In this document: positions 4,437-56,802 of the stretch, piece by piece | How positions within the stretch are numbered: the first letter of the stretch is position 1 | How the letters are laid out: each line of letters begins with the position of its first letter | Assembly: GCA_001404055.1 (NCBI GenBank) | Contig: CXTY01000006.1 | Location: forward strand, 62,019-126,018 | Source: Roseibium album | Lineage (GTDB): Bacteria; Pseudomonadota; Alphaproteobacteria; Rhizobiales; Stappiaceae | Length of the DNA stretch: 64,000 nt | Direction: 5' to 3' | Notes under the pieces: generated by a model | What the model saw: the letters and a program-made list of their open reading frames with translations, nothing else | What the model was told of the DNA's origin: nothing | Database searches by the model: none | Position numbers and translations under genes: made by a program

Positions 4437-5348
4437 TCAGTAATTCCCGACTGAAACATCCACCGCCAGCAATCCTTCAGCCAGATGATCAAAAACAGTC
4501 CGGATACGGCGGCTTGTGTGAAGCTCACGATGGGTTACCAGCCAGATCGGGAAGGTGACCGGGTCAACGTCTGCAAAAGCCGGAACGATGTCAGGACAGC
4601 GATTGGCGATTTCGTCGGCCATGATGCAAAGCCCGAGTCCGTCGCGGACAAGTTGCCAGGCAACGACACCACTGGGAGAACTAAGCTTGATATTGCTTTC
4701 GCTGACATGGAGCCCGAAGGCCCGCAGGTAGCCGACCAACTCCTCGTTGTTGTCGAAGCCGATGTAATCCAGCTGCGATGCTTCCTTTCTGGATAGTTTT
4801 CTTCCGAACCTTTCCAGGTACGAGCGTGCTGCATAGATACGCGCCGGTGCCTCGCGCAGCTTGCGGGCGTAAAGATCAGGGTGGTCGGGTTCGACATGCC
4901 GAATGGCTATATCCGCTTCCCTTCGCCGCAAATCGCTCAAGCTGTTTGTGCAGTGGACCTTGACCTCGACACCGGGTGCCTTGTGCCTCAGGTCGCGCAG
5001 AATATCCGGCAGGATGTATGTTGCCATCAGGTCCGTCGTCGATATTGTCACCAGTCCTTCGATCTGTTGCGACTGTCCGGATGCTGCAAGAGACACGCGG
5101 CTGGCGGCATCCCCCATGGCGCGAACATGTTCGACAAGTTCAATACCGGCTTCGGTCAAGATCAGCGATTTGGAGACGCGCTCGAAGAGCGTCACGCCAA
5201 GTGCCTCTTCAAGCGCAGCCACCTGACGGCTCAGCGTTGGTTGCGTCAGGCCCAATGCTCTGGCCGCTGCAGATAGCGACCCTTCTTCTGCAGTCACGAG
5301 AAACGCGCGGGCTTGATTCCAGTCGAATGCGATGTTTTTCCAACTCAT
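4437..5348 (-). CDS. LysR-family transcriptional regulator
   Basis: 303 residues. The N-terminal winged helix-turn-helix (about 9-68) is classic: FLVTAEEGSLSAAARALGLTQPTLSRQVAALEEALGVTLFER. The rest is the two-lobed LysR effector domain (ATYILPDILRDLRHKAPGVEVKV). It faces a small ORF and a methyltransferase gene across about 300 bp. LysR proteins commonly regulate the divergent gene and themselves, so these are the best target guesses. The effector is unknown. Confidence 0.9.
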   Translation of the reverse strand: MSWKNIAFDWNQARAFLVTAEEGSLSAAARALGLTQPTLSRQVAALEEALGVTLFERVSKSLILTEAGIELVEHVRAMGDAASRVSLAASGQSQQIEGLVTISTTDLMATYILPDILRDLRHKAPGVEVKVHCTNSLSDLRRREADIAIRHVEPDHPDLYARKLREAPARIYAARSYLERFGRKLSRKEASQLDYIGFDNNEELVGYLRAFGLHVSESNIKLSSPSGVVAWQLVRDGLGLCIMADEIANRCPDIVPAFADVDPVTFPIWLVTHRELHTSRRIRTVFDHLAEGLLAVDVSVGNY

Positions 5349-5434
5349 GCAAATATGTATATCACCTAGCCGAAATTCGGCAATTTCTATTCATTTATGA
5401 AGAAGGTAATAATCCAGGGAAAGGAGCGCTTCCA

Positions 5435-5581
5435 ATGAACCCGTCCTGGTTGACCTTACAACTGGCGAAATTGATTTTTTCAGTTCTGTGTTTTCTGGCC
5501 TCTCCAACTGGTGGCCGTGACATAGGTCGTGACATCCTGCGCCAGATAGGACTTCGCGGCAGCAGCCGAAAAGGCAAGTAG
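5435..5581 (+). CDS. Possible 48-residue small protein
   Basis: A short frame from ATG 5435 to TAG 5581, with GGAAAGGAGCG ending 5 bases before the ATG, a strong ribosome-binding site. The product has a hydrophobic segment (residues 8-22, LQLAKLIFSVLCFLA) and a basic, arginine-rich tail (RDILRQIGLRGSSRKGK), so it could be a small membrane-associated peptide. It lies between the divergent LysR gene and the methyltransferase. I recognise no family. The case rests on the ribosome-binding site and composition only. Confidence 0.35.
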   Translation: MNPSWLTLQLAKLIFSVLCFLASPTGGRDIGRDILRQIGLRGSSRKGK

Positions 5582-5653
5582 CCTGGGTTTTGGTTCGTGT
5601 TTCTGGGTGGTCTGGGGCCGAACGCTTGTATTGAATGAATGGAAAGACTGACC

Positions 5654-6328
5654 ATGGCAATTGCATGGACCAATGAAATGACGCCTTCGACGAAGTTCTG
5701 GGACAAGGCGGCGCGCAAATACGCAGCCTCGCCGATCAGCAATCAAGCTGCGTATGAAAAAACCCTTGAGCGCACGACAGAACATCTCGGACCAGAAGAC
5801 AATGTCTTGGAGCTGGGATGCGGCACTGGATCAACGGCGCTCTTGCTGGCCGGGAATGTAAGATCTTATCTGGCGACGGACTTCGCGCCGGGCATGATCG
5901 AAATCGCAAATGAAAAACTGGCCGCCGAAAAGGCCAACGGCAAGAAGCATCAAGGGCTCGGTTTTCTGACTGCAGATGCTTTTGACGAAAGCGTGCAGCT
6001 GCCTGATGAAAACACTGGTGGCTATGATGCGATTTTGGCCTACAACTTTTTTCACCTGGTCGAGAACCCCGAAGACCTTCTGGCAAGAGTTCGCGATCTA
6101 CTGAAACCCGGTGGCCTCTACATTTCCAAGACGGTCTGTCTGAAGGATCGCGCCTGGCTGTTCCTGCCGATGATCAAAGCAATGCAGATCTTTCGCAAAG
6201 CCCCATTTGTGAGCATGTTGTCGTTCCAAAACGTCGAAGACATGATTCGGGAAGCGGGTTTTGAGATCATTGAGACCGGGACGTATCCGGAGCCGCGCAG
6301 CCGCTTTGTCGTGGCACGGAAGATTTGA
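5654..6328 (+). CDS. Class I SAM-dependent methyltransferase
   Basis: 224 residues from ATG 5654 (GGAAAG seven bases upstream; an in-frame ATG 15 bases earlier lacks a site). Motif I VLELGCGTGST at 51-61, followed by the acidic end of the next strand (LATDFAPGMIEIA), YDAILAYNFFHLVENP as motif II and LLKPGGLYISKT as motif III show a Methyltransf_11-type small-molecule or lipid methyltransferase. The substrate cannot be deduced. It lies downstream of the possible small ORF and divergent from a LysR gene that may control it. Confidence 0.85.
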   Translation: MAIAWTNEMTPSTKFWDKAARKYAASPISNQAAYEKTLERTTEHLGPEDNVLELGCGTGSTALLLAGNVRSYLATDFAPGMIEIANEKLAAEKANGKKHQGLGFLTADAFDESVQLPDENTGGYDAILAYNFFHLVENPEDLLARVRDLLKPGGLYISKTVCLKDRAWLFLPMIKAMQIFRKAPFVSMLSFQNVEDMIREAGFEIIETGTYPEPRSRFVVARKI

Positions 6329-6455
6329 CGGTATTTCGATAATTGCATTGAGAGTTACTTCGGTAGGAAAGGTATCACGGGTTGCAGCCTTGCTGTGGTG
6401 AGGTGGCAATGGTACGACTGGGCTCTCTCCTGTCGCCACTTCCTTGAAAGCCTCC

Positions 6456-7628
6456 ATGCTCTCTCGTGACCGCGCGTTCTTTGCGTCAATGTTTCTGACG
6501 GTACTCGCCGATCAGATCCTGTTGTTTCTTGTGCCTCTGGTGATTTTTCAAATTACCGGAAACGTCGCCTGGTCTGGCCTCGCTTTTTTCTTTGAAACGT
6601 TGCCGCGCTATCTGACGTTTCCAATTGCCGGTATTCTCTGCGACCGGATTTCGCCGATCCTTCTTCTGCGGGTAAGCCGTATTATGCGCGCCGTTGCTTG
6701 CGTTGTTGGAATTGGTGGTCAGATTGCTTTTGGTGGCGTCTGGTGGTTGATCGGGCTTTCGGCCGTTGTTGGTGTGTTGACGACGCAGGGCATGCTGGCG
6801 CTTGAGATGCTTCTTGTCAGGGCCTTCGGCGATCAGCGATTTGAAAAGGTGGCAAGTTACGGCCAACTGGCATCACAGATGGGTGTCGTGCTCGGTCCTC
6901 TGGTTGCTGCATATCTGATGGCAATCTGGCCCTGGGAATTTGTCGTCGTCCTTGCAACGGTCCTGTTTCTTCTGGCAGATGTCGCCTTCAAGCTTTGGCC
7001 GGGGCAGGGCCGGATGAAAGCGCCTCCGGAGGGTGGTGAGCCTCGGCACCCGGTCGCGGACCTGAAACACGCGCTCAAGCTTGTCTGGTCCTTGCCGGGC
7101 CTGATGCGGGCGATCCTTCAGGCTGCGGGTGTCAACCTCATCATCGGAGCAACGCTTGCAACTGCAGCTGCAATGATGACCGGATACTTCAATCAAAGCG
7201 AACAGGCTTATGCCTGGCTGCAGGTTGGCGGGGCTGTGGCGACGCTGACCGTGTTGACATTGACTGCCCATGTACATCTGGGACTGAACGTTCTGGGGGT
7301 GACAGCCTACGGCTTGATCTGTCTCGGTGCCTTCCTGACCGGGCTCAGTGCACACCCCTTGATTTACGTTGCAGGCTTTCTCCTGATTGCCGGGTTCGAC
7401 AAGATGTTCAACATCTATGTTCGTACGTTGCGCAAGGAAATCATCCCGCCTGCAGAGTTTGGCAAAACCACTGGTGTCATCATCTGCCTCAATAATCTGT
7501 CCCAGCCGATGGCCGGGCTGATCGTGGCGTTGTTTGCTGCCGGTGACGATGCGCGTGGTGTCCTCGTCGGATTGGCGGCAGCTATGGCAGTAATGGGAGT
7601 TGCGACATTCTGGAAGCGCTCGGTCTGA
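6456..7628 (+). CDS. MFS transporter
   Basis: About 390 residues from the ATG at 6456 (an in-frame TTG lies four codons earlier). Around eleven to twelve hydrophobic helices with the MFS A-like loop (GILCDRISPILLLRVSR) after helix 2. The overall look is that of MFS_3/enterobactin-exporter-like (EntS) carriers. A short charged loop (PGQGRMKAPPEGGEPRHP) separates the two six-helix halves. Substrate unknown. The upstream methyltransferase is 127 bp away on the same strand, which leaves co-transcription possible. Confidence 0.85.
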   Translation: MLSRDRAFFASMFLTVLADQILLFLVPLVIFQITGNVAWSGLAFFFETLPRYLTFPIAGILCDRISPILLLRVSRIMRAVACVVGIGGQIAFGGVWWLIGLSAVVGVLTTQGMLALEMLLVRAFGDQRFEKVASYGQLASQMGVVLGPLVAAYLMAIWPWEFVVVLATVLFLLADVAFKLWPGQGRMKAPPEGGEPRHPVADLKHALKLVWSLPGLMRAILQAAGVNLIIGATLATAAAMMTGYFNQSEQAYAWLQVGGAVATLTVLTLTAHVHLGLNVLGVTAYGLICLGAFLTGLSAHPLIYVAGFLLIAGFDKMFNIYVRTLRKEIIPPAEFGKTTGVIICLNNLSQPMAGLIVALFAAGDDARGVLVGLAAAMAVMGVATFWKRSV

Positions 7629-47136: not shown

Positions 47137-47850
47137 TTACCAATTAGTATTTTCTTTGCTCGATAGTTCGCGGATGCTGATTTCAAGCAGGCTGACAATA
47201 TCTCTATTTCTAACATTCAGGTAATGATAAGTACCCGTTTGATAGAGCACCGGAGCGAGTTTGATCATATTCGTAGTTGCCGGGTAATCCTTTGCTAAAA
47301 TCTCATCGGCGCTGCTTTCCGTGGCGATCGCGACATCGATACGCCCCCTCGCCAACATCCTCATGAGATCAGGATAGGTTGCAACTTCAACCGCACTCCT
47401 CCCCGACAGAAAACCTTTCGCCCATCTCACGCCTGTCACATACCCAACTTCAAGCCCGGCGAGTTCCTTGACGCTCCCGCCAAAAGTCTTTGCCAACGCA
47501 GGGTTTGTCGAATAGGCGAAACCTCGAAGTGTGTTCACCGGCTCACCCACTCGAACGAGGTTGAGATGATTTTTCTCAATAGCCGGCACACGGGCCGCAT
47601 CACCGTCTAATTCTCCAGAATCGGACCATACGATGGACCGTTGCGCCGGGAGCGGAACAAATTCGACCATCAATCCAGCGTGCATATAAACTTGGGCCAG
47701 CCGCTTGATCGCAGTCGCATGACCGATGCTACCTATTATGTAACCGATGCGGTAGACCTTGTCCTGAGCCTCTGTCGCGAGACCGGGCAGTGTATTCACC
47801 AGGCTAAAAAGAATAGTGAAAACAAAAGCTACCTTGCGATGATGCCGCAT
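47137..47850 (-). CDS. Periplasmic solute-binding-like protein (SBP_bac_3 type), orphan
   Basis: 237 residues with a signal peptide (KVAFVFTILFSLVNTLPGLATEA). The mature part has the small two-lobe binding protein pattern: an N-terminal lobe ending in VEFVPLPAQRSIVWSDSGELDGDAARVPAIEKNHLNLVRVGEPV, then FGGSVKELAGLEVGYVTG and the closing DLMRMLARGRIDVAIATESSADE. This is the short transporter-substrate-binding family often found outside transport operons. No permease is nearby. It is AT-richer than its neighbours and may be recently acquired. Confidence 0.72.
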   Translation of the reverse strand: MRHHRKVAFVFTILFSLVNTLPGLATEAQDKVYRIGYIIGSIGHATAIKRLAQVYMHAGLMVEFVPLPAQRSIVWSDSGELDGDAARVPAIEKNHLNLVRVGEPVNTLRGFAYSTNPALAKTFGGSVKELAGLEVGYVTGVRWAKGFLSGRSAVEVATYPDLMRMLARGRIDVAIATESSADEILAKDYPATTNMIKLAPVLYQTGTYHYLNVRNRDIVSLLEISIRELSSKENTNW

Positions 47851-48178: not shown

Positions 48179-49195
48179 TCAGTTTGTCACGGCCTCAGCT
48201 ATCTGCAGGAAGGCAAAGGGTGGGATCCGGTCCAGCTTCCTTGCGACATCCATGTTGACCACATAGGCAAAATCTGTCGCACGCACAATTGGCAGGTCGC
48301 CGGGGGTCGCGCCGTCTCGCAGGATTTTGAGAGCCTGGCCTGCGGCGAGCTGACCGACATCGTAGTAGCGCGCCGCAATCGACAAGAGCGCCTGTTTTTC
48401 CCTGACAAGGCTCTCATATGGGCTGACAATGGCAATGCCGTTTTCCACCGCGGATGAGGTATAAAGATCGCCGTTCTTGCGTAGATAGGAACTAGAACCG
48501 AGATAAATCCATTCAACGCCCTTTTTGCGAAGCTCTGCCATGCGCTCCGGGATCGTCCCCGGGTCAGGCGCGCCTTCGTTGCCCGGGTCGAGCTCCAGCG
48601 CCACCAGCTCGATCCCTAGCGTCGGGGCCAACGCTTCCAGCTCCTTTTTCTTGATCGCCGAATTGCGCTCATTGGAATTGTACAAGAGCCCAAGTTTTGA
48701 AAATGCCGGATCGTATTGCCGGATGACCTCGATATTGACGCTTTCCGGTACCCGGTTGAATGTGCCGGTAACGTTTTTCCGCCCGCTTGCCTCGAAACTT
48801 TCGGCGATGTTCGTTCCGAAAGGATCGGCAACGACCGTAAAAACGACCGGGATGTTGGAACTGATGCGATCGGGCCTGCTATCCTCCAGCGTTCCGATCA
48901 ATCCCATCGTCACGCTGGTGCCAAAGGTCAAGACCAGGTCCGGACGTGTTTCGTTGATCTCCGCGACAATGGCCGACAATTGCGCTTTGTCCTGATTGAT
49001 GTCCCTGACGACCACACTTGCCGGAAAACCGCTGTCGGCGATTGCGGTCTTGAAACCTTCACACAGATGTTCGCAACCCTCATAGAAAATCCCGAGGATC
49101 GTGCGCCGGTCTTCCGCAAAAGACGACGGAACGAAAGCTATTACCATTGAGGCGAAGAGAAGCAGACTGCGCAGTCCAGGCACACTATCCCCCAT
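48179..49195 (-). CDS. ABC_sub_bind-family periplasmic substrate-binding protein
   Basis: 338 residues with a signal sequence (GLRSLLLFASMVIAFVPSSFAED; the ATG at 49195 is one choice, and starts within the signal are possible). The mature protein is of the PF04392 type (relatives include tryptophan/tyrosine-binding TrpX): ILGIFYEGCEHLCEGFKTAIADSG, DLVLTFGTSVTMGLIGTLE, IPVVFTVVADPFGTNIAESFEASGRKNVTG, and the C-terminal DVGQLAAGQALKILRDGATPGDLPI. The usual ABC permease and ATPase genes are missing. It follows the sensor-MFS gene by 68 bp on the same strand and is probably its periplasmic partner. Confidence 0.85.
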   Translation of the reverse strand: MGDSVPGLRSLLLFASMVIAFVPSSFAEDRRTILGIFYEGCEHLCEGFKTAIADSGFPASVVVRDINQDKAQLSAIVAEINETRPDLVLTFGTSVTMGLIGTLEDSRPDRISSNIPVVFTVVADPFGTNIAESFEASGRKNVTGTFNRVPESVNIEVIRQYDPAFSKLGLLYNSNERNSAIKKKELEALAPTLGIELVALELDPGNEGAPDPGTIPERMAELRKKGVEWIYLGSSSYLRKNGDLYTSSAVENGIAIVSPYESLVREKQALLSIAARYYDVGQLAAGQALKILRDGATPGDLPIVRATDFAYVVNMDVARKLDRIPPFAFLQIAEAVTN

Positions 49196-49263
49196 GAGCT
49201 TTCCGAGGTGATCTTTTCCAAAAGACTAACTCAGGTCAGTCGCGAATGCACGTTAACGCTGCA

Positions 49264-52035
49264 TCACACAGGCAACCGCTTCAGGAGCACGGTTGCGGCA
49301 AAGGCGGCTCCAACAAGTGTCCAGGCCGCGACAGCACCGAGAGCAGCGACATAGCCAAAGGCGCCGGCGATCGCAGCAACGGCAACGAGCCCCATGACGC
49401 TTCCAAGCCGTTCAAGCGTCCGCAGTGAACCGAGCACGGCAACTGAGCCTGCCTCCTTCAGCTCGCCTTCTGCGAGTTTCATCACTAGGGAAACCTGCGC
49501 ACCCCGTGCCAGGCCATAGCCGATGCCGGAAACTGCCAACCCGGTAACCAATGCCCAGGAGACCGGCCAAAGACCGAAAAGCACCAGCGACGCACCGGAC
49601 GCAAGGCATGCGAGAACCGCGACCGGTCCGACGGGAAGTCCGGCCGCCGCAAGGCGCCCGCCGATGGGTCCGGCCGCGATCACACCGAGGAAAAACAACG
49701 TCAAAGCGCGCCCGATATCGGCGGTCGACGCACCGAGATCATCAAGCGTCAGTGCGGCAAGATAGGAGACGAATGCCTGTAGGATCACGCCCATGGGGAT
49801 CGCAATGCCGAAGACAATTGCCGCAAAACGTGGATTGCCGAGCGGCGCCAGAATTCCAGCGAAGTTGAAACGTTCCCCTTTGTGCTCGCTGGCCCCTGCA
49901 CCGGGTACGATCAGCCAGGTGCTCAACAAGGCCGAAACGCCAATTAGCAAGGCGCTCAAAAGAAAGACGTTCTGCTGCCCCAGCCGGTCGGCAAGAACAC
50001 CGCCGAGCGCGACACCGGCCAGCACGCCGCCGAACAGGACCAGCGTGAAGGTTCCAAGCACACTGTCCCGGTTTTCAGACGTCGCCGTGTCGATGACATA
50101 ATCCTGACAGGCCAGCGTGATGATGGCATATCCGATGCCGGTTAGCGTGCGCCAGAAAATGATCTCCTGCGCCGTTTCGGCAAAGTAAAGCCCGATATGG
50201 GCTGCAATCATTGGCAAGCCGGCTGCGAGAAAGAGCGTTCTGAGGCCAAAGCGCTGATTTAGCCCCCGGGCGAAGGGGGACGCGAATAAAATTGCAAGTA
50301 GATAGCCTGCCAGCGGCAGACTGATGAGAACGCTTTCATCGAGCCACGGCCAAAGGTTCTCGGACGCGCGTGTGTACAGCGGCAGGAAGGCGAGCGGCAG
50401 CTCGTCGGCTGCGGCAAACAGGAAGAGCGCGAGCCGGATATCGGTAAAATAGGAGATCCTGAGTGGTGCCGGCGGTCCGTTTTCAAGGCCGAAGTGCCGC
50501 TTCAAACCTTCAAGCGAAGCGTCCGCAACACTATCCCCTGCGCTTGCAACCACCTGTTCCAGCCGCCGGTAGACATCGGTAGAGCGTTCCGAAAGCTGGC
50601 GCATCAAACCGGCGATCACGGCCTGGTGTCCTGGTGTTGCAGTTTTGGAAAAGTCTCCGCTGGCCTGAAGCGCGGCTAGACGCTGCAGTCTGTCGAGCGA
50701 GGCCGTCAGCGAGCGGCTAGTCAGGAGCACCATCACTTCGTAGGCGAGCAGGATCGTCACGAGAACAACCACGCTCATGTCGAGAAACACATCCCGAAAG
50801 CGCTTGGCGATGAACGCTGGATCGATATCGATTACGACATAGGCAATTTCTTCGCCTTCATAAAGGATCGGGTGGCTGCGTACGTCCTTCCGCTGACGCG
50901 GCGGTGCTAGATACGGATCGATCCGTTCGCCCGCTTCCAGGACGATCCGGCCGGTGGCCACCGCTACGTAGGCGACTTCGGGCAACTGCGTGAGCATGTC
51001 GCCGAAATAATTTTCCGCTCCAACCAGATTGTCGAGCGGCGCACCGGCCTCTATTGCCCGCTGGACATTGTCGCTGACAACAACCCCGACGAGGTTAGCG
51101 CGCGCGGCAAGCTCAGGCTCGATGGATCTGTTAACATCCCGCAAGACCAGAAGGCCCAAAATTGTGGCGGAGACGACAATTGCAGCGGCGGCCACCGGTG
51201 CGAGCTTGAGGGCAAGAACACCAGCCAGCGAACGCGTCCGTTCCGGCGATTGAGGTGCGCGGGAAGTCTCAAAACCTGGTGCCAAAGCAAGGTCATCGGA
51301 GCCAAGCGATTTGATGACCGCATCGTATTGCCGCGAGGCCTCGACAAGGTTTGCGTTGAGTCGCGACACTTCCAGTTCAAGTGCTCCCTTGCCTAGCGGT
51401 GCATCCTCGGCAGGCTCGCTCCTCTTACCGATTGCGCCAAGGCCGTCGATTGCCCGGCGCGGACCTGCCAGCAGGATTCTGAGCAGGAAATAGGCGACTG
51501 CAGAAATCGCGAGCCAGATCAGAAACCCGGCAATTGCCATTTTCCGGAAGATTGCAGAGGACGCCGCCGAGAGCCTGTCCTTCGGGTAGGAAACGGTTAC
51601 GGCGGCAACAGCTTCGCCGTCGGCTCGTTGGATCGTGTGGCCACTGATGACCTCCGTTTCGGTTTCCGTCCCCCAGGTCGTACCGTCAGCGAGGTGCATT
51701 CGCCGCAGCACCTCGCTGCTCACCGATGGCGGGCGCGGGGTCTGGGTGCTGTGAACGACAATACCGGACGAATTGAATGTGTTGGCAACGCCTATTTCTG
51801 CATCCATGTCGCGGGCGCGCAAAACGACCTGATCTCCATTTCGGATCATGGAGACCGGCAGGCCCAGATCAACGATCGGCTTGTAGGAGGCAACGATGGT
51901 CTGGCTGATGACGGCAATACGCTGGCGCAGCAGCTGAGAATAGATCGCGTCATGCTGGAGAACCGCCAGCAATCCGAGCAACACCTGGACAACACCGATC
52001 ACAATCGTGAAGGCAAGCCAGCTGCGAAACAACAT
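49264..52035 (-). CDS. Sensor-MFS fusion protein: two extracytoplasmic sensor modules plus MFS carrier
   Basis: 923 residues from ATG 52035. Order: helix 6-26; periplasmic PAS/Cache-like region 27-165 (DAEIGVANTFNSSGIVVHSTQ, DGEAVAAVTVSYPKDRL); helix 166-190; cytoplasmic HAMP-like/coiled linker 191-268; helix 272-298; second periplasmic module 299-415 (LPEVAYVAVATGRIVLEAGERIDPYL, EGEEIAYVVIDIDPAFIAKRF); helix 418-438; HAMP-like segment 439-500; then a complete MFS domain of about twelve helices from 530 (SPFARGLNQRFGLRTLFLAAGL is its A-like loop; GGVLADRLGQQNVFLLSA in the middle). Sensor modules of chemoreceptor or kinase type joined to a carrier are unusual. No kinase or receiver domain is seen. 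The next gene encodes a periplasmic binding protein. Confidence 0.82.
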   Translation of the reverse strand: MLFRSWLAFTIVIGVVQVLLGLLAVLQHDAIYSQLLRQRIAVISQTIVASYKPIVDLGLPVSMIRNGDQVVLRARDMDAEIGVANTFNSSGIVVHSTQTPRPPSVSSEVLRRMHLADGTTWGTETETEVISGHTIQRADGEAVAAVTVSYPKDRLSAASSAIFRKMAIAGFLIWLAISAVAYFLLRILLAGPRRAIDGLGAIGKRSEPAEDAPLGKGALELEVSRLNANLVEASRQYDAVIKSLGSDDLALAPGFETSRAPQSPERTRSLAGVLALKLAPVAAAAIVVSATILGLLVLRDVNRSIEPELAARANLVGVVVSDNVQRAIEAGAPLDNLVGAENYFGDMLTQLPEVAYVAVATGRIVLEAGERIDPYLAPPRQRKDVRSHPILYEGEEIAYVVIDIDPAFIAKRFRDVFLDMSVVVLVTILLAYEVMVLLTSRSLTASLDRLQRLAALQASGDFSKTATPGHQAVIAGLMRQLSERSTDVYRRLEQVVASAGDSVADASLEGLKRHFGLENGPPAPLRISYFTDIRLALFLFAAADELPLAFLPLYTRASENLWPWLDESVLISLPLAGYLLAILFASPFARGLNQRFGLRTLFLAAGLPMIAAHIGLYFAETAQEIIFWRTLTGIGYAIITLACQDYVIDTATSENRDSVLGTFTLVLFGGVLAGVALGGVLADRLGQQNVFLLSALLIGVSALLSTWLIVPGAGASEHKGERFNFAGILAPLGNPRFAAIVFGIAIPMGVILQAFVSYLAALTLDDLGASTADIGRALTLFFLGVIAAGPIGGRLAAAGLPVGPVAVLACLASGASLVLFGLWPVSWALVTGLAVSGIGYGLARGAQVSLVMKLAEGELKEAGSVAVLGSLRTLERLGSVMGLVAVAAIAGAFGYVAALGAVAAWTLVGAAFAATVLLKRLPV

Positions 52036-52533: not shown

Positions 52534-55500
52534 TCAAGTTTGCGAAACGGCAGGTCCCTCCGTCGAAGTATTGGTTTTTTTTCGCGAAAACTTCTCTCTG
52601 GTTCTCTGGACCGCAACATAGAGCACCGGGATCATAATGAGCCCGATGGTGCTGTCCAGGATCATGCCGGTAAAGACCGGCAAACCCAGGGAAACGCGGC
52701 TGGCAGAACCAGCGCCGCTGGCGAATACCAAGGGCAGAACCCCGACAATGAAACACAGACCGGTCATCGTGACAGGGCGGAAACGTGTATGCGCTGCGCT
52801 GATGGCCGCATCGGTGATGCTCATGCCTTCGTCCCGGCAGTTACGTGAGAACTCCACCAGCATGATGGCTTTCTTGGCAGCCAGACCGATCAGCAGGACC
52901 ATGCCGATCTGGGCATAGATGTTGTTGTTCAGCACTTCGATGAAGTAGAGCGGAATAAGCGCACCGCACACGGCAAAGACAGCCGATAACATGACCGACA
53001 CCGGCAACAACCAGCTTTCATACTGCGCTACCAGACAGAGGTAGGCGAACAGGAACGCAAGCAGGAAAATGTAGAGAACATAGGAGCCTGCCTGGATTTC
53101 CTGCAATGACATGCCTGTCCATTCGACCGAGTAACCGTCGGGCAGAACATTTTCTGCGATCTTTTCAAATGCAGCAATGCCTTGGCCCGTGCTGTGACCC
53201 ATGCTGGTCAGACCCTGTACGGCTGCTGATCGTTCCAGGTCGTAACGGGTTACGCTTTGCGGGCCGACGACCGGTTTCAGGCTAACCAGCGTGCTCAGCG
53301 GTATCATGTCGCCGGAAGATCCCTTGACGTAGATATTGTCGATGTCCTCAAGCGATTGCCGGTATTCGGCTTCTGAAGAAATGATGACCCAGAAGATCTT
53401 GCCGTCGAGCAGGAAATTGTTGACGTAATAGGACCCCAGATTTGCCTGTAATGCCGAAAAGATGTCGCTGATATCAACACCCAAAGCCTCGGACTTGTCG
53501 CGATTCAATTCGACCTGGTACTGGGGCGTGTTCGCCGAAAGGGAACTGAAAGCCCGCATGAAGACCGGATCGGCATTTGCCGCAGCCAGCACCGCATTGG
53601 TCACGGCGCCAAGGTCAACGACGCTGCCACCGGCATCATCCTGGATCTGTGCGGAGATGCCGCCGGAAATGCCAAGACCATCAATAGGTGGCAGAGGAAA
53701 TACGAATGCCTTTGCCTGGTCGACCGTGGCAAGTTTCTCGTTGATAGCACGGAGAATATTGAACCACTTTGTTTCCTTGGTTGTGCGTTCATCCCAGGGT
53801 GCCAGGATTGCAATAAGGGTCAGGTAATTGGACCCGTTGCCCGCAATGATGCTGAAGCCGGAGACGGAAATCACGTCATTGACGCCCTCCACGTCGTGCA
53901 TCAGCGTTGTCATGGATTTCGCCACGGCTTCCGTTCGCTGAAGCGACGCACCGTCTGGAAGCTGAACATTGGCGAACAGAACCCCCTTGTCTTCCAGCGG
54001 AATAAACCCGGTTGGTGTATTCTGGAACATGTAGACCGTGGCAACAATCGCCACAACGAGGATAAGCAGAGACGCCGTCACGCTTCGAAGCATCACGCGG
54101 ACCAGCCTGACATATCCGTTGCGTACCTTGTCAACGATTGCCCCGAACACCCTCAAGGGCATGAACGGCTTTTTCTTGTCACACTTCAACAGCAGGGAGC
54201 ACAACACCGGAGCCAGCGTAAGTGCGTTCACGGCGGACAGACAGAAGGCGACCGTGATGGTTAGCGCGAACTGAAGATAGATCTTTCCCGTAATGCCTGG
54301 GAAAAAGCAGACAGGGACAAAAACCGCCAGAAGCACAAAGGTCGTTGCGATGATCGGTCCCGTGACCTGGCTCATTGCTTTCAACGTGGCTTCCCTGGGT
54401 TCAAGCCCTTCTTCTTCCATCAAACGCTCGGTGTTTTCGATGATGACAATGGCATCATCGACGACGAGTGTGATGGCAAGGATGACGCCGAACAGCGTGA
54501 TCAGGTTGGCCGTGAAGCCGAGCATGAAGAGAATGGCAAACGTACCCAGCAGTGACACGGGAATCGCGACTGCAGGGATAAGAACTGCCCTGCCGCTCAT
54601 CAGGAAGAGAAAGACGACGAGGACCACGAGACCTGTGGTCATGGCAAGTGTCGTCAGGATTTCATCGATTGATGCGCGAACGGCCTTGGTGATGTCATAT
54701 AGAAGGCTGTATTCAACGCCTTCTGGAAAACGCGCCTTCATCTTGTCGAGTTCGGCATAAACGCTCGTCGCCACATCCAACGCGTTTGCACCCGGAGACT
54801 GATAAACCGCAATCGCCGCCGATGGCTTGTTGTTCAGGGCTGAAAAGGCAGCATAGGAACTGGACCCAAGCTCAACTCTGGCAACGTCTTTCAATCTTAC
54901 CAGCTGACCGGACGCGTTTCCCGAAACAACGATATTGCCAAATTGCTCCGGTGTTTCCAGCAAGCCTTGAGCTTTTAACGGGAACTGGAAGTCCGTCGGC
55001 CCGGCAAACGGCGCACCGCCGATCTGGCCAGCAGTCGCGCGGGCGTTCTGGGCTTGAATGGCATTGGAAAGATCGTTTGCGGTCAGATTGAGCGCCGTCA
55101 TTTGATCCGGCCGCATCCACACGCGCATGCTGTAATCCAGCGGCCCGAACTGCGAGACGCTGCCGACACCGGGCAGACGTGACAGGCGATCTTGTATGTG
55201 AATGGTCGAATAGTTGCTCAGGAATATGGCGTCCCGGCTTTCATCCGGCGAAACCAGATTGATGACCAGAAGCATGTTCGAGGACTGCTTCTTTGTGGCA
55301 ACGCCGAGCGTTCTTACAGACTGAGGCAGCAGAGGTTCGGCCAGCGATACACGGTTTTGCACGTTGACCGCGGCAATGTCGGGATCTGTCCCGATTTCAA
55401 ATGTGATCGTCAGCTGGTATGTGCCAGCATTGGAACTGGTCGAGGACATGTAGATCATGTCCTCAACGCCATTCACCTGATCTTCAATCGGGATGGCGAT

Positions 55501-55683
55501 GGACTTTTCGATAAGTTCTGAATCGGCACCTGGAAACTGTGCCGTCACGACAACCTGAGGCGGTGTAACATTCGGATATTCCGACACCGGGATCAGGATA
55601 ATCGCGATGATGCCGACGAGAGAAGCAATCAGTGAAAGAACGAGCGCGAAATTCGGGCGATCAATAAAGAACCTGGATAACAT
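52534..55683 (-). CDS. RND multidrug efflux permease (AcrB/BepE family)
   Basis: 1049 residues, standard HAE1 length. Proton-relay aspartate pair in ITLVVDDAIVIIENTERLMEEEG near residue 405, N-terminal FIDRPNFALVLSLIASLVGIIAI helix, PVSEYPNVTPPQVVV start of the porter domain, and the second-half repeat with YESWLLPVSVMLSAVFAVCGALIPL. It captures drugs or detergents in the periplasm and exports them with an adaptor and a TolC-like channel. Encoded 15 bp after its adaptor gene on the same strand. The outer membrane channel gene is not here. Confidence 0.95.
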   Translation of the reverse strand: MLSRFFIDRPNFALVLSLIASLVGIIAIILIPVSEYPNVTPPQVVVTAQFPGADSELIEKSIAIPIEDQVNGVEDMIYMSSTSSNAGTYQLTITFEIGTDPDIAAVNVQNRVSLAEPLLPQSVRTLGVATKKQSSNMLLVINLVSPDESRDAIFLSNYSTIHIQDRLSRLPGVGSVSQFGPLDYSMRVWMRPDQMTALNLTANDLSNAIQAQNARATAGQIGGAPFAGPTDFQFPLKAQGLLETPEQFGNIVVSGNASGQLVRLKDVARVELGSSSYAAFSALNNKPSAAIAVYQSPGANALDVATSVYAELDKMKARFPEGVEYSLLYDITKAVRASIDEILTTLAMTTGLVVLVVFLFLMSGRAVLIPAVAIPVSLLGTFAILFMLGFTANLITLFGVILAITLVVDDAIVIIENTERLMEEEGLEPREATLKAMSQVTGPIIATTFVLLAVFVPVCFFPGITGKIYLQFALTITVAFCLSAVNALTLAPVLCSLLLKCDKKKPFMPLRVFGAIVDKVRNGYVRLVRVMLRSVTASLLILVVAIVATVYMFQNTPTGFIPLEDKGVLFANVQLPDGASLQRTEAVAKSMTTLMHDVEGVNDVISVSGFSIIAGNGSNYLTLIAILAPWDERTTKETKWFNILRAINEKLATVDQAKAFVFPLPPIDGLGISGGISAQIQDDAGGSVVDLGAVTNAVLAAANADPVFMRAFSSLSANTPQYQVELNRDKSEALGVDISDIFSALQANLGSYYVNNFLLDGKIFWVIISSEAEYRQSLEDIDNIYVKGSSGDMIPLSTLVSLKPVVGPQSVTRYDLERSAAVQGLTSMGHSTGQGIAAFEKIAENVLPDGYSVEWTGMSLQEIQAGSYVLYIFLLAFLFAYLCLVAQYESWLLPVSVMLSAVFAVCGALIPLYFIEVLNNNIYAQIGMVLLIGLAAKKAIMLVEFSRNCRDEGMSITDAAISAAHTRFRPVTMTGLCFIVGVLPLVFASGAGSASRVSLGLPVFTGMILDSTIGLIMIPVLYVAVQRTREKFSRKKTNTSTEGPAVSQT

Positions 55684-55698
55684 GGTCGCGTGCCTTAC

Positions 55699-56802
55699 CT
55701 ATTTGGTAGCTTCGATAGGGTCGACGGCCATGCCGGGCTGGACTTTTTGCAACCCCTGCACGATCACCTTTTCACCTTGCTTCAATCCGGATTTCACTTC
55801 CCAGAGTGGTCCGGCTTGTTTACCGAGTTTGATATCCTGCCGCTGTGCCTTGTTGTCTGCGCCTACGATGTAAACGTAATGCCCCTTGGCATCGAGCTGG
55901 ATCGCTGACTGCGGGATCGCAGAGATTTTTGGCGGGTTGGCATCCTGCACGGAGACATTCACAAATTGACCGGGGATCAAAAGGTTTTTCGGATTGTCGA
56001 AAGTAGCGCGCATTTCGACGGTGTCACTTCCCTCGTCAATGGACGTTCCGACATAGGTTATCTTGCCGGTTGAGGGATATTTTGAACCGTCCGCCAGACC
56101 CAGATCGACCAATAGCGTGGATGTGTCATTTCGGACAAGTCCGGCCTCCCGGTCTTCGATCAGGTCTTTCTCGCCCATGTAGAAACTCACATAGATCGGG
56201 TTGACGCTGGTGACCGTTGCCATGGTGCCGGTATTGGAATCGACCAGATTGCCTACGTTGACGTTGGTCTTGGTGATACGTCCGTCGATTGGGCTGTAAA
56301 TGTCGGTGTAGCCGAGATTGATTGTCGCAGTGTCCAGATTGGCCTGCGCCTCATCGACATTCGCCTGATCTCCTGACATCGTTGCTTTTGCGCTATCGTA
56401 AACCGCCTGAGAAACATCGCCTTTTGCGAGCAGCTGTCTCTGACGTTCAAGTTCGATCTGGGAATTTGTCAGCGCCGCCTTGGCACCTTCCTGCGTGGCT
56501 TTCGCCTGGTCAACACTCGCCTGGTAAAGGTCCTTCTCGACCACATAGAGAAGGTCGCCTTTCTTGACAAAGCCACCTTCTGTGAATTTGCGTTCTGTGA
56601 GATAGCCCTCGACCCTGGAGACAATTGCCACGGTCTTGGTCGCTTCCACCCGTCCTACATAACGGGCCTTGTTCGCGGCTTCGATGGTCTGAACGGGCGC
56701 GACAGTCACTTTCTGTGGCGAAGAGGATGCATCCTGAGCAATAGCACTGAGAGGGGTAGCAGCAACGACTGCAAATCCGAACAGAATCCTAGCGGCTAAC
56801 AT
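55699..56802 (-). CDS. RND efflux periplasmic adaptor (MFP/AcrA family)
   Basis: 367 residues from ATG 56802 (GGAGGGCTC upstream; an in-frame ATG five codons earlier lacks a site). Signal peptide MLAARILFGFAVVAATPLSAIAQDA without a lipobox. Then the adaptor order: lipoyl half VSRVEGYLTERKFTEGGFVKKGDLLYVVE, coiled-coil hairpin with DQAKATQEGAKAALTNSQIELERQRQLLAKGDVSQ, second lipoyl half TDIYSPIDGRITKTNVNVGNLV, beta-barrel and membrane-proximal parts. Partner of the RND permease downstream; the pair resembles BepD/BepE of Brucella. Confidence 0.93.
   Translation of the reverse strand: MLAARILFGFAVVAATPLSAIAQDASSSPQKVTVAPVQTIEAANKARYVGRVEATKTVAIVSRVEGYLTERKFTEGGFVKKGDLLYVVEKDLYQASVDQAKATQEGAKAALTNSQIELERQRQLLAKGDVSQAVYDSAKATMSGDQANVDEAQANLDTATINLGYTDIYSPIDGRITKTNVNVGNLVDSNTGTMATVTSVNPIYVSFYMGEKDLIEDREAGLVRNDTSTLLVDLGLADGSKYPSTGKITYVGTSIDEGSDTVEMRATFDNPKNLLIPGQFVNVSVQDANPPKISAIPQSAIQLDAKGHYVYIVGADNKAQRQDIKLGKQAGPLWEVKSGLKQGEKVIVQGLQKVQPGMAVDPIEATK

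Follow-up and report, generated by a model that had tools for sequence, protein, structure and literature searches.

A sensor-MFS protein and its adjoining PF04392 binding protein in Roseibium album look like an undescribed sensing module

We analyzed a window of 64,000 nucleotides from Roseibium album (GenBank assembly GCA_001404055.1, contig CXTY01000006.1, positions 62,019 to 126,018 of the forward strand), in which two adjoining genes encode a protein with sensor-like and major facilitator superfamily (MFS) parts and a solute-binding protein (SBP) (Table 1). Rather than a simple transporter, the pair appears to form a sensing module that has not been described, and its relatives recur in proteobacteria, often next to genes for signaling or secretion. 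An original prediction, made from the letters alone, had proposed that the binding protein presents a ligand to two built-in sensor modules, which gate or regulate the carrier. The positions, lengths and strand of the two open reading frames (ORFs) and the 68-bp gap between them (49196-49263) agreed with that prediction. The expected MFS domain was recovered in the C-terminal part by a Pfam match to MFS_1 (residues 536-857, 98.2 bits against a curated cut-off of 33.4, E 6e-28), and the neighboring gene indeed belonged to PF04392 (ABC_sub_bind), again above the curated cut-off (93.9 bits, cut-off 25.9, E 1e-26). A simple hydropathy scan, which merges neighboring helices, placed hydrophobic segments before the MFS part at residues ~7, 167, 280 and 420, which fit the two extracytoplasmic stretches anticipated at residues 27-165 and 299-415. 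The binding protein also stood, as foreseen, without an ABC permease or ATPase: none was recognized with Pfam among 16 window proteins, a subset of the window ORFs (partners elsewhere in the genome were not searched for).

Table 1. Features of the sensor-MFS cassette, in window coordinates
Feature	Position	Strand	Basis
Fused sensor 1 / sensor 2 / MFS protein, 923 aa, from ATG	49264..52035	-	ORF and Pfam
PF04392 binding protein (SBP), 338 aa, apparent signal peptide (by eye)	48179..49195	-	ORF and Pfam
Sensor module 1, extracytoplasmic part, Cache-like, residues ~26-166	51538..51960	-	Hydropathy; dCache_1 in 5/19 relatives; own gene in split relatives
Sensor module 2, extracytoplasmic part, Cache-like, residues ~299-419	50779..51141	-	Hydropathy; sCache_3_2 in 4/20 relatives; profile-related to module 1
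HAMP-like linker, sensor 2 to MFS, residues ~439-500	50536..50721	-	HAMP in 8/20 gene-2 relatives; boundaries inferred
DHA1-like MFS domain, residues ~514-920	49276..50496	-	E545, R629, RxxERxG signature at 872-878
GCEHLC motif of SBP, residues 40-45	49061..49078	-	GCxxxC in 17/41 SBPs compared

Relatives were collected with the MFS/sensor protein, not the SBP, as query. From 104 genomes with a match, 20 stretches and then 4 more were taken, mainly those with the best full-length matches, and the locus set therefore leans to closer relatives. Its 44 members were the window locus, L006, L007 and L015-L055. Of these, L031, an MFS gene without sensor modules, was excluded from the 43-locus SBP count but retained in the set of 44 and for the Mantel test. 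An SBP domain was present no more than 2.7 kb from the MFS domain in 42 of the 43 sensor-MFS loci; the contig of the sole locus without one, L026, ends 374 bases past the MFS ORF. The SBP lay on the same strand at a distance of less than 500 bp in 36 of the 43 loci having it (L031 included). In a sample of 398 genomes of the phylum (cut-off E 1e-40 or better), all 12 carriers of the sensor-MFS protein had the SBP, with weak matches in three (L053-L055).

No SBP match was detected in 20 ordinary MFS loci, drawn from the results of the same search and used as controls; linkage to the ABC_sub_bind gene is conserved in the family. In addition, distances between MFS domains and between SBPs were correlated (Mantel r 0.87 for 41 loci and 0.68 for 21 less redundant ones), with 0 of 2000 permutations reaching either value; the test omitted L026 (no SBP), L028 (partial SBP) and L040 (SBP divided over two ORFs). 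Shared descent as an operon explains such co-divergence as well as contact between the proteins does. In L040, the divided SBP gene (6344-7344) is apparently broken. Orphan PF04392 proteins are usually annotated as ABC components alone, and three further PF04392 loci were found in the window genome, as might be expected if the fused protein simply exported a substrate like other MFS proteins, its N-terminal domains being decorative, and if the SBP of an ABC importer encoded elsewhere had come to lie beside it by chance. However, SBP linkage in 42/43 loci against 0/20 controls and the co-divergence of SBP and MFS make this explanation very improbable.

The window protein is one fused form of a broader sensor-MFS family. 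The same fused gene with an adjoining SBP gene was present, at 50-51% identity, in Defluviimonas salinarum (L006) and in a Rhodobacteraceae metagenome-assembled genome (L007), and in a divergent fused group (L032-L034, L042-L045 and L053-L055), the open frames spanned 810-1066 codons and SBPs were matched more weakly (E 3e-7 to 1e-16). Relatives with 21-33% identity over sensor 2 and MFS were mostly split into a sensor 1 gene (~240-320 aa) and a sensor 2 + MFS gene (~650-790 aa), accompanied by the SBP gene; in L016, sensor 1 was a separate overlapping ORF. The domain order described in the original prediction therefore recurs, although it is not unique to the window and is mostly split in relatives. 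Separate genes for the N-terminal half and the MFS part, together with an unlinked binding protein, had been named as a finding that would speak against the proposed model. The parts are indeed separate in many relatives, but they are divided after sensor 1, which leaves sensor 2 joined to the MFS part, and linkage to the SBP is retained.

In a tree of the 'quick' type built from the 44 MFS domains, with long branches for L031, L028, L052 and L051, the window, L006 and L007 formed one starred clade within a starred set of 15 rows, the other 12 of which were split. At least three changes between fused and split forms were needed on this tree, not counting L031. By Rosetta-stone reasoning, such repeated fusion and fission argues for a joint function of sensor 1 and the sensor 2-MFS protein. 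A plasmid collection yielded one record by protein search and none by DNA search. On visual inspection, ORFs resembling IS6-type transposases lie close to the fused cassette in L006 (124-576) and L007 (5179-5892).

Neither the Cache models nor the HAMP model matched the window 923-aa protein (Pfam, E up to 1), and the label Cache-like rests on its homologs. When all profile matches with an E value of 1 or less were counted in relatives, dCache_1 was found in 5 of 19 proteins of gene 1 (sensor 1; best 1e-5), whereas gene-2 proteins (sensor 2 + MFS) matched sCache_3_2 in 4 of 20 cases (best 4e-5) and HAMP in 8 of 20 (best 1e-10). The families of modules 1 and 2 could be aligned with each other, profile to profile, at 98.7% probability, membrane helices included. 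Both sensor 1 and sensor 2 are thus predicted to be Cache-like modules. For the Cache/PAS-like modules and HAMP-like linker of the original prediction, Cache and HAMP matches thus occur in some relatives, but not in the window protein itself. A profile search of PDB with sensor 1 gave no significant sensor match, with the sensor kinases 4jgo, 4jgq and 3lic at E 0.25-0.37; its best matches, designed repeat proteins and coiled coils, were rejected.

When PDB was searched with a profile of sensor 2 + MFS, all matches among those listed fell in the MFS part, and the nearest solved structures included NorA, VMAT and EmrB. Two residues, the acid E545 in the first transmembrane helix (TM1) and the motif-B-like Arg R629, were each kept in 19 of 20 proteins (alignment A2). 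The family signature RxxERxG (R872, E875, R876 and G878) was kept in all 20. Given the conservation of these residues, the MFS domain is not a wreck and, judging from sequence, may still move a substrate.

We also examined the neighbors of the module in relatives. Local profiles detected SpoIIE-like domains in the vicinity of 14 of the 44 loci (with a weak match in L031), STAS domains close to 8 and cyclases close to 5; Pfam confirmed 3, 2 and 2 of these, respectively. Relatives of HATPase proteins were found near 8 loci, 2 of them confirmed by Pfam. Genes of type VI secretion systems (T6SS) were present within the fetched stretch of 10 of the 44 loci (L022, L032, L035, L036, L041 and L046-L050; Pfam on examples), the evidence in L032 being VgrG and FHA-like matches alone. 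SpoIIE, cyclase or T6SS genes combined were found in 24 of the 44 loci. None of the 20 ordinary MFS loci had a sensor, SpoIIE, cyclase, STAS, T6SS or ATP-grasp/GNAT-like match. Because of these SpoIIE, STAS, HATPase, cyclase and T6SS neighbors, outgoing signaling appears to be indicated at least as much as regulated transport.

A TssK match was present in 15 of 28 carrier genomes scanned, at a distance of ~31 kb or less from the cassette in G304 (both copies), G347, G679, G514, G604, G458, G040, G274 and G301, and the arrangement in G301 was not common to its relative G303. The idea of a T6SS-specific module was rejected, because 13 of the 28 carrier genomes had no TssK match. Three loci, from a plasmid record of Vibrio and two other genomes (L046, 7706-19530; L047, 6228-16999; L048, 6339-16840), have the cassette immediately upstream of T6SS-cluster genes for VgrG, a PAAR-like protein (by eye), TssA and TssB. 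Locus L027 adjoins a gene of the FlhB/YscU family, which may belong to type III secretion or to a flagellar system.

Six loci contained a second sensor pair beside a cyclase or SpoIIE gene (L020, 3451-6098; L023, 10311-12970; L025, 10356-13161; L029; L030; L052). Its C-terminal part had no match to the local MFS profile in these six loci and no Pfam match in the two scanned; by hydropathy, it was multi-helical in five loci scanned. These observations bear on the possibility of a regulated carrier, the model of the original prediction, in which the SBP-presented ligand would make the sensor modules gate or adjust a functional MFS transporter with no outgoing signal. The HAMP-like linker leading into the MFS domain, the kept TM1 acid and motif-B-like Arg, the similarity to NorA, VMAT and EmrB, and the lack of a recognized output gene beside the window copy all suit such a carrier. 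However, SpoIIE, cyclase or T6SS genes at more than half of the loci would be unexpected if transport were the sole end point, as would sensor pairs whose attached parts no longer match the MFS profile, and we regard regulation of transport alone as a tentative, rather unlikely alternative.

Another group of neighbors consisted of enzymes. A D-Ala-D-Ala-ligase-like ATP-grasp gene adjoined all 7 loci of a divergent fused subgroup (L033, L042, L044, L045 and L053-L055; Pfam on 4, similarity on 3; the L042 copy at 4468-5709), and further ATP-grasp genes were present in L020, L023 and L024. An acyltransferase-like family was common to L020, L023, L027, L029, L030, L051 and L052; its link to GNAT consisted of one match below the cut-off (L029, E 0.004), with no Pfam match in L020, L027 and L051. 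In addition, an alanine racemase was found in L029, a true GNAT in L017 and a relative of the latter in L021. These enzymes, and the resemblance of the MFS domain to drug exporters, could be accounted for by an autocrine circuit, in which a molecule derived from an amino acid would be the product of an ATP-grasp or acyltransferase-like enzyme and leave the cell through the MFS; its detection outside by the SBP and sensors would trigger an output. However, no such enzyme match occurred beside the window copy or in the 10 T6SS-linked loci, the seven-locus acyltransferase-like family is weakly GNAT, and enzyme sets vary between loci; we consider an autocrine circuit unlikely.

Distribution of the fused gene was assessed in organisms related to R. 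album. It had one full-length match in the window genome, and no fused copy besides that of the window was found in the 45 genomes of the genus (E 1e-30); among the 87 genomes of the family, six others had split relatives with 27-32% identity. Since an RND operon (window ~52,580-56,750) is conserved in 8 congeners that have no fused copy anywhere, and since GC content is higher in the cassette (58.7%) than in the window (54.1%), the cassette was probably acquired horizontally. No histidine kinase, SpoIIE, STAS, HATPase, ATP-grasp or acyltransferase-like match was recognized beside the window copy among the window proteins scanned. Unlike some relatives, the window cassette does not lie in a T6SS cluster, and the single TssK match of the genome is on another contig. 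With no output gene recognized at its side, the window copy would act through transport by the MFS itself or through a partner elsewhere. The gene downstream of the SBP (47137-47850; 237 aa, apparently exported) is not supported as a third component, as it had no Pfam match and no relative in the loci searched. An SBP_bac_3-like gene occupies the matching position in L049 and L050, but is not detectably related to the 237-aa protein.

With respect to the SBP, its profile placed GCExxC against HPALD of PDB 6hni, the Glu facing Asp, in a comparison with solved PF04392 structures (6hni, 3lkv and 3lft); HPALD is thus replaced by a WRGCEEAC-type stretch. The GCExxC motif of the window SBP (49061-49078) is a possible disulfide, metal or ligand site. 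Relatives of the PF04392 family bind aromatic amino acids, and by this weak analogy the ligand is perhaps amino-acid-like.

Taken together, domain order, linkage, co-divergence, repeated fusion and fission, and the neighbor classes of relatives are the observed basis for reading the two genes as a ligand-sensing module with the MFS domain as a transporter-like receptor (transceptor), a reading that we favor among those considered but hold to be evenly poised between right and wrong. The periplasmic SBP would capture a small, perhaps amino-acid-like ligand and dock on the two Cache-like modules in tandem, from which the HAMP-like linker would pass the change to the MFS domain; this domain would act as the receptor and may still move a substrate. 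The position of the module in relatives would allow it to drive partner switching by SpoIIE, HATPase and STAS proteins, a nucleotide cyclase or a T6SS, whereas the window organism probably has a transferred fused version with output via MFS transport or a partner elsewhere.

Several points weigh against a transceptor. The kept transport residues suit an ordinary carrier, and no output gene was recognized beside the window copy, L006 or L007, the stretches of the last two beginning no more than 750 bases from the gene. Neighbor counts stem from relatives with 21-33% identity over sensor 2 + MFS. The SpoIIE/cyclase proteins of L020 and L027 carry dCache and HAMP matches of their own and may therefore need no input from the sensor-MFS module. 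Loci are partly dependent, including near kin (L037-L040, L034/L043, L054/L055, L020/L023 and L046-L048). Control stretches (6.4-10.8 kb, a few with the MFS near an end) were mostly shorter than test stretches, which makes the neighbor controls weaker than the SBP control. Finally, AlphaFold2 gave no usable structure model of the sensor-MFS protein: with 3-sequence alignments, its confidence score (pLDDT) was 41.3 for the whole 923-aa protein and 38.2 for module 1 alone, too poor for judging the fold.

Several known systems resemble parts of the proposed receptor. In UhpC-UhpB, an MFS-type sensor works with a membrane histidine kinase, and UhpC is not known to have Cache/HAMP modules or an SBP. 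The likeness lies in an MFS protein serving as receptor besides, or instead of, carrier; the window system differs in having Cache-like modules and an SBP, with no histidine kinase recognized beside it. In CbrA, an SLC5-type carrier is followed by a kinase in one chain, and a carrier domain is thus joined to signaling parts as in the window protein, where, however, the sensor modules precede the MFS and no catalytic domain was found (Pfam). RsbU/BtrU-type partner switching is not known to involve an MFS or an SBP; SpoIIE phosphatase, STAS and HATPase occur near relatives of the module, but none was recognized beside the window copy. TrpX-type PF04392 proteins share the Pfam family of the window SBP, which scored 82 bits against the TrpX NCBIfam model but remained far below its equivalog cut-off of 390 and has no recognized ABC partner.

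Docking of an SBP on an extracytoplasmic sensor domain stimulates receptors, as described in PMC9602780. The proposed SBP-sensor docking follows the same principle, whereas an MFS protein would form the body of the receptor in the window system; a word search showed PF04392 once in that paper, within the Pfam signature list. A T6SS genomics study (PMC2660368) contained none of the terms sought. No description of the sensor-MFS-SBP architecture was found in open-access full-text literature, a scope beyond which most subscription papers fall.

A more far-reaching proposal is that SBP, tandem Cache-like modules and MFS form, across a widespread, undescribed signaling family, one receptor that would report a self-made, amino-acid-derived molecule (produced by ATP-grasp or acyltransferase-like enzymes encoded nearby and exported by the MFS) and would switch secretion systems or partner-switching cascades, with the window copy as a mobile listener lacking its own signal maker; we consider it quite unlikely. 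Receptors stimulated by SBPs and sensors resembling transporters are known separately, but a conserved family that joins both, with a carrier as receptor body and with T6SS or SpoIIE genes close to many of its members, was not found in the open-access literature. If true, the transceptor reading would offer an input to the control of T6SS and partner switching in proteobacteria that can be tested, as well as a role for orphan PF04392 binding proteins.

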